Of a stretch of DNA of 42,115 bases, positions 25,583 to 29,470 are shown piece by piece. The first letter of the stretch is position 1; each line of letters opens with the position of its first letter. The DNA comes from Balneolales bacterium (GTDB lineage: Bacteria > Bacteroidota > Rhodothermia > Balneolales > Natronogracilivirgulaceae). Both the position numbers and the translations under genes were made by a program. The notes below the pieces were generated by a model, which did no database searches, was not told the DNA's origin, and saw only the letters and a list, made by a program, of their open reading frames with translations. The stretch lies in NCBI GenBank assembly GCA_007128425.1, contig SKXL01000103.1, positions 1-42,115 of the forward strand, written 5' to 3'.

Positions 25583-26377
25583 ATGAACAGAATGACAAGT
25601 ACACCCATGTCCATCTTTTTCATCTTTCTCATCCTACTCATCCTGCCGGCTTTTTCATCCATCAGTCAGGACAGACCTTCCATTGCCGAACCGGAGGTGT
25701 CACAAATATTCCGAAACATTGCTGATATAAACGACAGGGCTTCCATTGCGTTAATTCTTGAAGATTTTCTGATACCGGAAGATGTCGACCAGGTGGAGCG
25801 AATTGAAGTTATTGATGTCAGTAATATCGGATTTGGCAGAGACGACATTGTCGTTGTTTATCCGTCTATGAATGTGTATATCGTGGAACAGCCTTCCCGG
25901 GAGCTGGCTGAAGTCATGCGATCCTGGGGCATTCAGGAGCAGCGCAGAGACGCCAGCAATGAACTGGAGCCTGATTACTTCTATCCGGCTTTTGCCGATA
26001 CACTCACAGAAAACGAGATTCAGGAAAGACAGCTTGAGCTGGTCCAGGGCTCTATTATAGCTGACCTGCTGGAGTCCGTGAACAGGAACTATGCTGACAT
26101 GCCGCTCAGCCTGCGCTTTGAACGTGATCAGGAGGGTTTTACATTTCAGCTCTGGAATTATGAGCAGGATGCATTTGCCTTCAAGCCAAGACCTCCGGCG
26201 GTGCCCGATTCGGTCGGAGTTTATGATTTCATATATATGATTACAGCAGACACCACGGTCATATCCGATACGGTAATGTACGATATCATGTATATCAGCA
26301 AGTCCGTTCAGGAGATCATAGAGCTGCCCCCCCAGCCGGCAGACAGACAGGAGATCCGCACCACCACCCTTCCCTGA
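25583..26377 (+). CDS. Periplasmic protein of unknown family, last gene of the envelope cluster
   Basis: A 264-aa protein with a signal peptide (hydrophobic 10-27, SIFFIFLILLILPAFSSIS). The mature part is mixed: an N-terminal helical region (SQIFRNIADINDRASIALILEDFL), a beta-rich piece (ERIEVIDVSNIGFGRDDIVVVYPSMNVYIVEQPS), and near the C-terminus an aromatic stretch with DFIYMITADTTVISDTVMYDIMYISKS. I do not recognise the family. It abuts the TPR lipoprotein gene (TAA then ATG, no gap), so it is part of the operon. Confidence 0.75.
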   Translation: MNRMTSTPMSIFFIFLILLILPAFSSISQDRPSIAEPEVSQIFRNIADINDRASIALILEDFLIPEDVDQVERIEVIDVSNIGFGRDDIVVVYPSMNVYIVEQPSRELAEVMRSWGIQEQRRDASNELEPDYFYPAFADTLTENEIQERQLELVQGSIIADLLESVNRNYADMPLSLRFERDQEGFTFQLWNYEQDAFAFKPRPPAVPDSVGVYDFIYMITADTTVISDTVMYDIMYISKSVQEIIELPPQPADRQEIRTTTLP

Positions 26378-26472: not shown

Positions 26473-27474
26473 TCAGCTGTCAAAACGGTACAATCCGGCT
26501 TCCCGGGCAACCCGAATTGCTTCGATGTATTCTTCCGTTGTTATTCTGCGATTGATACTTGTGAACTTTTCCGGTTTTCGCAAAACCATTCCATCGGGAT
26601 GATACTGATCCATAATATTGACCCAGGTATGCCTCGAGATTTCATCTGCAATAAAGCGGAATATATTTTGAGTATCTGAAATTTCTCCGGGCATAACCAG
26701 GTGCCGGACCAGCAATCCGCGTCTTGCCAGACCATGGCTGTCAAAACGGAGTGGCCCGACCTGTCTTTGCATCTCTATTATAATGGTGCGTGCCACCTCC
26801 GGATAATCTTCGGCTCCCAGATAACGACGTGATTTCCCGGCGTCCCAGAACTTGAAATCCGGCATATAAATATCCACGATGCCATCCATAAGCTTGAGTG
26901 AATGCATGGAGTCGTACGCGCTTGTGTTATAGACTATCGGAATTCGCAGTCCCAGTTCAATGGCTTCAGGGATTGCTTCAATTAGCTGGGGTACCACATG
27001 CTCGGGGGTTACAAAATTGATATTGTGGCATCCCTGTTCCTGAAGCGAATACATCATTCTTGCAAGCTCACCGGCATTCTGAACCGTTCCCTGACCGCGC
27101 CATGAAAGTTCATGATTCTGACAAAAAACACATTTCAGATTGCAATAGGAGAAGAAAATTGTCCCGGATCCAGCCCATCCTCGCAAACCATCCTCTTCGC
27201 CAAGATGAGGAAATGCACTGCATACCGCGGCATATCGACCTGATCTGCATATTCCGTGATGATTGTTCAGACGGTCTACACTGCAATTGCGGGGACAAAC
27301 GGAACAGGATGCAAGCAGTTTCATCGCCTTATCCACCCGATCGGAAAAAGTTTTTCGATCCTGCTCATAAAGCCTCAGATAAGCCGGAACAAACTCACTC
27401 TTCGGCATCACCCACTCTTCGCCACCGACATAATCCGGAAGATCGTCAATGGCCCTGCGCTGCCACATCTTCAT
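26473..27474 (-). CDS. Radical SAM protein, PflX/COG1313 type
   Basis: A 333-aa protein. The radical SAM cluster motif is C111-N-L-K-C115-V-F-C118 (FSYCNLKCVFCQN), the CxxxCxxC that binds the SAM-coordinating 4Fe-4S cluster. An extra N-terminal cysteine set (C57, C60, C64, C76; ASCSVCPRNCSVDRL...GIC) is typical of COG1313, the 'PflX' relatives of pyruvate-formate-lyase activating enzyme, and may hold a second metal or cluster. Other family blocks are NINFVTPEHV (position of the SAM-binding region), VDIYMPDFKFWD and RHLVMPGE. Its function in this family is not established; a glycyl-radical enzyme partner is not seen nearby. It is convergent with the envelope cluster. Confidence 0.88.
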   Translation of the reverse strand: MKMWQRRAIDDLPDYVGGEEWVMPKSEFVPAYLRLYEQDRKTFSDRVDKAMKLLASCSVCPRNCSVDRLNNHHGICRSGRYAAVCSAFPHLGEEDGLRGWAGSGTIFFSYCNLKCVFCQNHELSWRGQGTVQNAGELARMMYSLQEQGCHNINFVTPEHVVPQLIEAIPEAIELGLRIPIVYNTSAYDSMHSLKLMDGIVDIYMPDFKFWDAGKSRRYLGAEDYPEVARTIIIEMQRQVGPLRFDSHGLARRGLLVRHLVMPGEISDTQNIFRFIADEISRHTWVNIMDQYHPDGMVLRKPEKFTSINRRITTEEYIEAIRVAREAGLYRFDS

Positions 27475-27614: not shown

Positions 27615-28295
27615 TCATCTGCCGTGATACACCCTGATGGGAATTTTTTTGTCAAGGTGGATCCGGACATTTCTGCTCCTGTCGGTCTGAACTTCTTCAT
27701 ACCACTCTTCATTGTAAATAATTCCCGTGGACTCCATAACCAGTCTTGCCAGCTTCATGGCCACCTCATTGGTCACGCGGATGGAACCGTGGGATACCGC
27801 TTTGCCAATCGAAGAAGGCTCAACAGTTCCATGAATGGAGCGCGGTGCATCATAGATAAGCTGTGCCCTGCCCAGGGGATTATCCGGATCACCGGGTGCC
27901 ATGATGGCCCTGTACCAGGCCCATTCCTCATCAGGGGGATGCCACCACGGATTCCATACCACTTCATAGATGGCCCAGTTACCGGTACGGGTTGGCCAGT
28001 CTGGTTTCCCGATAGCTACAGGATAGGTTGCCACTTTTTCACTCCCATTCAACACAAAGAGCTCACGCTTTCCGATATTCACCTCTATTCTCATATCCTG
28101 CAGTGCAAAAGAAGGACTTAGATGAACAGGGTCAGATAAAAGAACCGAAACCGTATCGACATCCATATCATCATCACCAAATATATTGGTGATGCGCATG
28201 GTGTCCGCCTTGATACCGCCATTGCTTGCGCTTGCGCTTGCGTCAAGCAGTATGCATAACAGCAGTCCGAAAAATATCACAAATCGCTTTAACAT
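27615..28295 (-). CDS. L,D-transpeptidase-fold (YkuD) protein with Ser in place of the catalytic Cys
   Basis: A 226-aa exported protein. A signal peptide (hydrophobic, ending near LLDASASAS, which is encoded by a hexamer repeat) precedes a YkuD domain at about 65-220. Visible are IEVNIGKRELFVLNG, TRTGNWAIYEVVWNPWW, NPLGRAQLIYD and the active-site block HGTVEP (His155) ... SHGSIRVTNEVA. The canonical block is SHGChR/N: here the nucleophile Cys is Ser171 (codon at 27783-27785, TCC in coding sense). L,D-transpeptidases crosslink peptidoglycan or anchor lipoproteins through that Cys, so this protein is either catalytically altered, a non-catalytic peptidoglycan binder, or a serine variant. ATG 28295 is preferred to TTG 28310. 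Confidence 0.85.
   Translation of the reverse strand: MLKRFVIFFGLLLCILLDASASASNGGIKADTMRITNIFGDDDMDVDTVSVLLSDPVHLSPSFALQDMRIEVNIGKRELFVLNGSEKVATYPVAIGKPDWPTRTGNWAIYEVVWNPWWHPPDEEWAWYRAIMAPGDPDNPLGRAQLIYDAPRSIHGTVEPSSIGKAVSHGSIRVTNEVAMKLARLVMESTGIIYNEEWYEEVQTDRSRNVRIHLDKKIPIRVYHGR
28224..28241. repeat. Hexanucleotide tandem repeat (gcttgc)x3 in the L,D-transpeptidase-like gene
   Basis: Three exact gcttgc units encode the alternating Ala-Ser run at the end of the signal peptide. Slippage here would change the signal peptide length in two-residue steps without a frameshift. Confidence 0.75.
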
Positions 28296-28503
28296 CGCTT
28301 TAATTATCAATTAAGCTTCTGCATTAAAAATAATAGAATTCAGGATTTTTGTAAATTGATACAGTTTTGTCATGGCATATAACAATGCACTAATTAACTT
28401 TCACACGGCGTTATCCTTCTTCCACATAAACGTGTGTATAAATCCGGCACACTTGACCTGAAACCGTGGTTGCCATTGCTTTTCCGTGTAATCAAATCTT
28501 GTC

Positions 28504-28968
28504 ATGAAATTTTATATCATCCCGTTATTTGTTGTTCTGTTTTTTTCAGGTGGATGCATATCAGAAAATTCTATTGATTTTGATAACACAGCAGATCTTG
28601 TCTTTCTGGAAGAATATGCCGGGCGTGAGGGTGTAATCATCACCCAGAGTGGCCTTCTGTACCGTATAATCGAAGAGGGTGAAGGCGAGATACCGGAGTC
28701 GGGTTCCCGTGTTAAAATACACTATATCCTATCACTCGTAGATGGAACCATCCTGCAAAATACGTATGAGCAAGATGAACCTTTCGAATTCGAAATTAAT
28801 CAGGTAATAGACGGTCTGGCAGAAGGAGTCATGCTGATGCAGGAAGGAGCAATATACGAGTTGGTTATTCCCGCAGATTTGGCATATGGCGTTCAACCCC
28901 CGCCTGGCAGCAACATACACCTGGGAGCCACCTTGATATTCGAAGTGGAGCTTCTCGAGATCCTGTGA
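28504..28968 (+). CDS. FKBP-type peptidyl-prolyl isomerase lipoprotein
   Basis: A 154-aa protein with lipobox FSGGC (Cys18). The FKBP domain occupies about 45-154: ITQSGLLYRIIEEGEGEIPESGSRVKIHY, DGTILQNTYEQDEPFEFEINQVIDGLAEGVMLMQEG, YELVIPADLAYGVQPPPGSNIHLGATLIFEVELLEI. This matches the FKBP blocks 'V.VHY.g.L.dG...ds', 'vI.g..eg...m..G' and 'iP..laYG......ip....L.F.veLl.i'. As a lipoprotein it probably helps fold envelope proteins. It is divergent from the L,D-transpeptidase-like gene over a 208-bp spacer. Confidence 0.95.
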   Translation: MKFYIIPLFVVLFFSGGCISENSIDFDNTADLVFLEEYAGREGVIITQSGLLYRIIEEGEGEIPESGSRVKIHYILSLVDGTILQNTYEQDEPFEFEINQVIDGLAEGVMLMQEGAIYELVIPADLAYGVQPPPGSNIHLGATLIFEVELLEIL

Positions 28969-29041: not shown

Positions 29042-29470
29042 TCAACTGTAGACAATTTTGCGCATCTGCTCAGCCAGACTCTTGCAGCTGGTTACCTTGT
29101 CGACGTCATTGCAGAAGAAAACCTCTTCGTCTTCAAGAACATCCGACTTGCTGCAATGCATCCCTTCAAAATCGATTTTCTCAATCATTTTATCGAATTT
29201 GGCGCAATATTCAGCCATCTCCATTATCGTCAAATCATGAGGTGATTTGTCTGCTCCGGGACCATCAAATTTCTTGTAGTAGTAGTACAGATAATGATGC
29301 AGCGCGCGGCGGGCATAGAAGCACGCCGAATAAAGTACCACATCCGTTGACGGACGATACAGCTCCTGCTGGGACCGGTCAAAATCCACTTCGGCCTGCT
29401 TGAGAATCTCCTGAAGTTCGTCATTCATATCGGGTGATTGATGGGATCCCTGTCCATTTGCCTGTGCCAT
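29042..29470 (-). CDS. HEPN-domain-like protein
   Basis: A 142-aa cytoplasmic protein. The all-helical pattern DELQEILKQAEVDFDRSQQEL ... DVVLYSACFYARRALHHYLYYYYKKF followed by SPHDLTIMEMAEYCAKFD resembles HEPN domains ('A..dl..A........A.f..qqAaEKalKa.l......hdL..Ll'). The R-x4-6-H RNase motif of toxin HEPN proteins is not clearly present, and no nucleotidyltransferase (MNT) partner gene lies next to it. A housekeeping or substrate-binding role is therefore as likely as a toxin. Three clustered cysteines (HCSKSD, FFCNDV, TSCKS) are in the last 40 residues. It lies 123 bp downstream of nuoN on the same strand. Confidence 0.6.
   Translation of the reverse strand: MAQANGQGSHQSPDMNDELQEILKQAEVDFDRSQQELYRPSTDVVLYSACFYARRALHHYLYYYYKKFDGPGADKSPHDLTIMEMAEYCAKFDKMIEKIDFEGMHCSKSDVLEDEEVFFCNDVDKVTSCKSLAEQMRKIVYS

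Follow-up and report, generated by a model that had tools for sequence, protein, structure and literature searches.

The window, a stretch of 42,115 nucleotides, encodes a YkuD-fold protein in which a serine takes the place of the catalytic cysteine of L,D-transpeptidases. The same serine is present in the close homologues of five genera, and the alignments suggest a lasting redesign and not the wreck of a former gene. We read the members of this Ser clade as putative secreted enzymes that act on peptidoglycan stem peptides through a serine nucleophile, a reading to which we give a probability of about one half.

The gene lies on the minus strand (27615..28295). Its reading frame extends from a TTG at 28310 to the stop codon at 27615-27617, and the ATG at 28295 is favored as the start because the closest homologues begin there in the alignment, giving a product of 226 aa. 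Residues are numbered here with the TTG at 28310 as residue 1; subtracting 5 gives the numbering from the ATG. The product consists of a hydrophobic N-terminus, a variable linker and a single YkuD domain. Judged by eye from the translation MLKRFVIFFGLLLCILLDASASAS, the N-terminal stretch (28221..28295, minus strand, boundary approximate) is a probable Sec signal peptide. The domain is matched by the Pfam family YkuD (PF03734) with E = 6e-17 and 63-64.2 bits, against a gathering cut-off of 23.4.

The codon at 27783-27785 is GGA on the plus strand and thus TCC on the minus strand, which places Ser176 within VSHGSIRV. The initial annotation had described an SHGC motif that reads SHGS, with the partner His and the rest of the block kept and with a single base between TCC and TGC, and the sequence bears this out. 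His160, which occupies the catalytic-base site (27831..27833, minus strand), is invariant in the 12 Ser sequences and in 20 of 20 Cys sequences. His174 of the SHG(C/S) motif (27789..27791, minus strand) is shared by all 12 Ser and 16 of the 20 Cys sequences, and Arg178 of the same motif (27777..27779, minus strand) by all 12 and by 19 of the 20. Gly161, Thr162, Ser173, Gly175 and Ile177 are likewise intact in the window protein, and the first four of these, together with His160, His174 and Arg178, do not vary across the Ser clade.

The motif of the window protein thus reads SIHGT-(10 residues)-SHGSIRV. The published consensus for L,D-transpeptidases is phi-G-phi-HG(S/T)-X10-(S/T)XGC-phi-R(M/L) (PMC12729407). 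The canonical base His and the SHG turn are present (His160, Ser173, His174 and Gly175, all invariant), and the window protein departs from the consensus at three positions, C to S, G to S and M/L to V. The last of these, at the end of the motif, is Val in 11 of the 12 Ser proteins as against Met or Leu in L,D-transpeptidases. By profile and fold the protein belongs to YkuD, but we do not class it with the canonical L,D-transpeptidases, whose motif it breaks at the nucleophile.

Homologues were found at E up to 1e-5 in 13 of 59 related genomes (window included), and 12 of the 13, from five genera of one family, carry SHGSIR. Their nucleophile codon is TCC in 11 cases and TCA in one. The initial annotation had called for an alignment of close homologues at this site and had named Cys in all close relatives as the opposing outcome; every one of the 12 close sequences (window included) has Ser. 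The thirteenth homologue, L014, comes from the same family, is 35% identical and reads SYGC, with Cys. It may be foreign to its source genome, for which contamination is about 7%. Eight of the 12 Ser proteins were also recovered as named records, labeled Balneolales or Balneolaceae MAGs and including two different series, CSSed and DLM2. Such record names suggest that the MAGs were recovered from sediments and mats of soda lakes, and the family is presumably that of Cyclonatronum. A haloalkaliphilic isolate of the Balneolaeota from a soda lake has been described under this name (PMC6243061).

Beyond the clade, we find no YkuD protein with Ser at this site, and every motif read there has Cys. 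Across the order, PF03734 finds a match in 30 of 128 genomes. The Ser protein accounts for 12 of them, and the remaining 18, which span several YkuD subfamilies, have Cys. The search of the class matched 15 of 244 genomes, three of them with Cys (L014, L052 and L053), and the profile search of the phylum matched three of 395, two with Cys (L055 and L056). PF03734 itself matches in 301 of the 395 phylum genomes, and the best-scoring 30 loci, a choice biased to canonical members, all have Cys. We also scanned at the DNA level for two motif blocks, HGT and xHG-(Cys/Ser)-[IV]-R, set ten residues apart. This pattern takes Cys or a TCN serine at the nucleophile and one spacing, with AGY serine codons outside it. 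The window contains a single match to it, as against zero in 100 shuffles. Across the 395 phylum genomes it gives nine matches, eight with Cys plus the window, and in viral contigs 47 stretches, all with Cys (TGT 27, TGC 20, TCN 0). A viral scan with alignment A2 yielded no confirmed relative, and the four plasmid records read, of 150, have Cys.

In a tree of 39 sequences, the 12 Ser proteins form one group with support of 97/97, nested among 27 Cys sequences. The tree includes 19 of the 47 viral loci, with L069 (SNGC) left out. Mapping Ser and Cys onto it takes one label change, and 96% of 200 bootstrap trees recover the Ser clade. Which Cys sequence is its exact sister is unsure, as the closest Cys relatives are long-branched and L055, L115, L014, L120, L133 and L145 were flagged for long branches. 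The parsimonious reading of this topology would be a single Cys-to-Ser change that occurred before the five genera diverged.

The Ser proteins have evolved under strong purifying selection, with pairwise dN/dS of 0.03-0.18 in the 28 pairs with dS < 2.5, out of 42 of 66 pairs for which it could be computed. No reversion to Cys is seen among the 12, although TCC is one base from TGC and many synonymous sites are saturated. Their domains are 64-94% identical to one another, and 73 of 160 alignment columns do not vary. Invariant columns make up 46 of 60 in the pocket and 27 of 100 elsewhere, a purely descriptive comparison, as the boundaries were drawn after viewing the alignment.

These data bear on the possibility that a single genome carries a fresh inactivating point mutation or a sequencing error, which the single-base distance between TCC and TGC would allow. 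The initial annotation had already judged recent inactivation less likely than a functional Ser variant or a binder, and the evidence points the same way. Ser in 12 of 12 homologues, from five genera and 12 assemblies including the CSSed and DLM2 series, a monophyletic nested clade and low dN/dS rule out a recent event, whose probability we regard as negligible. Relocation of the nucleophile to another Cys in the domain is ruled out as well. From residue 70 onward, 11 of the 12 Ser proteins have no Cys at all and the twelfth, L007, has a single unshared one; with no shared Cys in the domain, the nucleophile has not simply moved.

Several other residues were fixed together with the Ser. Position 158, two residues before the catalytic His (27837..27839, minus strand), is Ser in 12 of 12 proteins. 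In two overlapping sets of Cys sequences it is Gly 18, Arg 1 and Leu 1 (n = 20), and Ala 16, Gly 16 and Met 1 (n = 33); YcbB-like proteins, with Tyr at this position, lie outside both sets. Arg108 (27987..27989, minus strand) replaces the Pro of the TPxG motif in all 12, while Pro is kept in 20 of 20 and 33 of 33 Cys sequences. Tyr153 (27852..27854, minus strand), near the active-site hairpin, is fixed in the clade, where the 20 Cys sequences have Leu, Ile or Val and the wider Cys set mostly Phe or Leu. The full set of residues fixed in the Ser clade is W105, R108, W112, Q150, Y153, R157 and S158. Because Arg108, Tyr153 and Ser158 are specific to the clade, these alignments indicate an active site reworked by more than one single hit. 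The co-fixed changes are not mutually independent, since all fall on the same stem branch.

Position 158 corresponds to Tyr507 of YcbB (His509 minus two). According to PMC6478713, the main-chain NH of Tyr507 lines the oxyanion hole, and its side chain has been suggested as the proton donor to the leaving group, a role akin to that of the serine of the SXN motif in penicillin-binding proteins (PBPs). By this correspondence, we propose that Ser158 assists the Ser nucleophile.

The AlphaFold2 model of residues 62-231 has a mean pLDDT of 92.8 and a pTM of 0.88. It was built on an alignment of 42 rows, comprising nine Ser proteins and 33 of 37 distinct viral Cys domains; a nine-row model with a mean pLDDT of 61.6 was set aside. 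Among 573 aligned PDB chains, the best structural matches are L,D-transpeptidases, in agreement with Foldseek: LdtA of V. cholerae (7aj9; Z 17.9, rmsd 2.3, 150 residues aligned), YcbB (7kgm; Z 17.9) and YkuD of B. subtilis (1y7m; Z 17.4). The mutant structures LdtMt2 C354S (Z 14.9) and Ldtfm C442S (Z 13.8) are also matched. By this predicted model, the window protein is of the YkuD fold, which itself says nothing on activity.

The comparison with YkuD-family L,D-transpeptidases (LdtA 7aj9, YcbB/LdtD 7kgm and 6ntw, YkuD 1y7m) therefore shows both likeness and departure. The predicted fold, the base His, the oxyanion turn, the Arg after the nucleophile and the ten-residue spacing from HGT to SHG are the same. 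In contrast, where these enzymes have Cys, the Gly of phi-G-phi-H-G and the Pro of TPxG, the Ser clade has Ser, Ser and Arg.

The identical substitution at the same position has been engineered in LdtMt2 C354S (8pxy), Ldtfm C442S (2hkl) and LdtJ C390S. LdtMt2 C354S is reported not to be acylated by beta-lactams (PMC6391942) and LdtJ C390S to be inactive (PMC12548408). These papers agree with the initial annotation, in which the Cys was regarded as essential for cross-linking and for the reaction with carbapenems. However, the engineered variants are laboratory changes in Cys-adapted proteins, whereas in the Ser clade the residue is of natural and ancient origin and goes together with further fixed differences.

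A different use of serine is reported for Lpg1514, a YafK-family protein that hydrolyses beta-lactams via Ser132, its canonical Cys174 being kept and dispensable for that activity (PMC13400389). Like the Ser clade, it belongs to the YkuD superfamily, and a Ser is reported to be important for its reactivity. It is not the same solution, since in that account Ser132 lies away from the nucleophile position and Cys174 is retained, whereas the Ser clade has its Ser at the nucleophile position and, in 11 of 12 proteins, lacks any Cys from residue 70 onward.

In the enzyme that we propose, His160 would deprotonate Ser176, its own ND1 being fixed by a main-chain carbonyl in the way known from other YkuD enzymes. 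Ser176 would then attack the L-center carbonyl of the third residue (mDAP) in a tetrapeptide stem, releasing D-Ala and leaving an oxygen ester in place of the usual thioester. The backbone NH groups of the SHGS turn would form the oxyanion hole, and Ser158, at the YcbB Tyr507 position, would pass on a proton in the manner of the SXN serine of PBPs. The ester would be resolved by the amine of mDAP, giving a cross-link, by a D-amino acid or by water. This proposed chemistry, with a Ser ester acyl-enzyme and a relay serine, resembles that of the PBPs (D,D-transpeptidases), whose fold and motifs are unrelated to YkuD and which have three separate PF00905 matches in the window genome.

The window assembly (2.93 Mb, 90.8% complete) contains one PF03734 match beside these three PF00905 transpeptidase matches, and no match to PF13645. 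To the extent that the assembly covers the genome, PBPs are retained and no Cys YkuD protein is available as a fallback. The YkuD protein is dispensable in the family, because seven of 20 genomes have no YkuD match, including two that are 94% (G014) and 92% (G015) complete.

The gene is followed by a radical SAM protein (26473-27474, minus strand; PF04055, E = 1.4e-10, in the range of PflA-like activases) with no NCBIfam model above cut-off. On its other side lies a divergently oriented FKBP-type peptidyl-prolyl isomerase, probably a lipoprotein (28504-28968, plus strand; PF00254). Further out, a 264-aa protein with a signal-like N-terminus (25583-26377, plus strand), without a Pfam family above cut-off, is conserved and adjoins a TPR protein in relatives, and a small protein of 142 aa (29042-29470, minus strand), without a Pfam match at E up to 1, lies beside a nuoN-like gene and is kept in same-genus loci. 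Among the loci listed, most of those from the same genus, as well as that of genome G013, have the radical SAM, divergent FKBP and nuoN-like genes around the YkuD gene, and none of the window neighbors is matched at the locus in G012 (L022). We rejected a functional link drawn from the neighborhood, given the lack of matches in G012, and read the conserved surroundings as shared ancestry of the region.

Fixation of the Ser, its single origin, purifying selection, the predicted fold with the partner residues kept, and the joint fixation of positions 108, 153 and 158 all count for a putative Ser enzyme. The favored, putative reading is a naturally occurring YkuD enzyme whose nucleophile is serine, with Ser158 perhaps relaying a proton. 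Against it stand the unreactive or inactive engineered Cys-to-Ser variants and the dispensability in the family. The same mutants favor a YkuD protein that has lost catalysis and is maintained as a binder or protector of peptidoglycan stem peptides, whose cleft would stay to bind mDAP stems or to act as a scaffold. Retention of the His residues is also expected of a binder, since His336 and His352 of LdtMt2 contact mDAP (PMC11410929). The structure of LdtMt2 C354S with natural substrate (8pxy, by its PDB title) and the report that a catalytically dead form of LdtJ still upheld growth and shape (PMC12548408) fit this picture as well. A mere binder, however, should tolerate Ala, Gly or Thr where we find Ser in 12 of 12 proteins, the base His160 never drifts, and other changes around the site were fixed in the same clade. 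We consider such a binder a close and plausible rival, with the odds somewhat against it.

The most specific form of the Ser enzyme would be a naturally evolved serine L,D-transpeptidase, combining PBP-like ester chemistry on a YkuD fold, Ser176 as nucleophile and Ser158 as SXN-like relay. It would cross-link or trim the peptidoglycan of its clade, and its reaction with carbapenems would probably differ greatly from that of the Cys enzymes. In this complete form the proposal is tentative and somewhat less likely than not. A Ser-dependent hydrolase acting on another substrate, such as beta-lactams, an ester or an envelope lipoprotein link, appears improbable. The reported hydrolysis of beta-lactams by Lpg1514 gives it a precedent, and the clade-fixed residues from W105 to S158 could mean a new substrate; however, Lpg1514 is reported to use Ser132 and to keep Cys174 (PMC13400389), and the core motif of the Ser clade is otherwise that of L,D-transpeptidases.

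According to PMC6391942, it is not understood what makes one enzyme rely on Ser and another on Cys, and PBPs (Ser) and L,D-transpeptidases (Cys) are given there as the example. Within the open-access literature, our search (with subscription journals and preprints outside its scope) found no report of a natural Ser at the nucleophile position of an L,D-transpeptidase. A natural Ser clade makes the question of why L,D-transpeptidases use Cys testable and, with only a few co-fixed residues, offers a direct comparison of which residues Ser chemistry needs on the YkuD fold. If the clade no longer catalyses, it would show what such a protein does, so that either answer would be informative.
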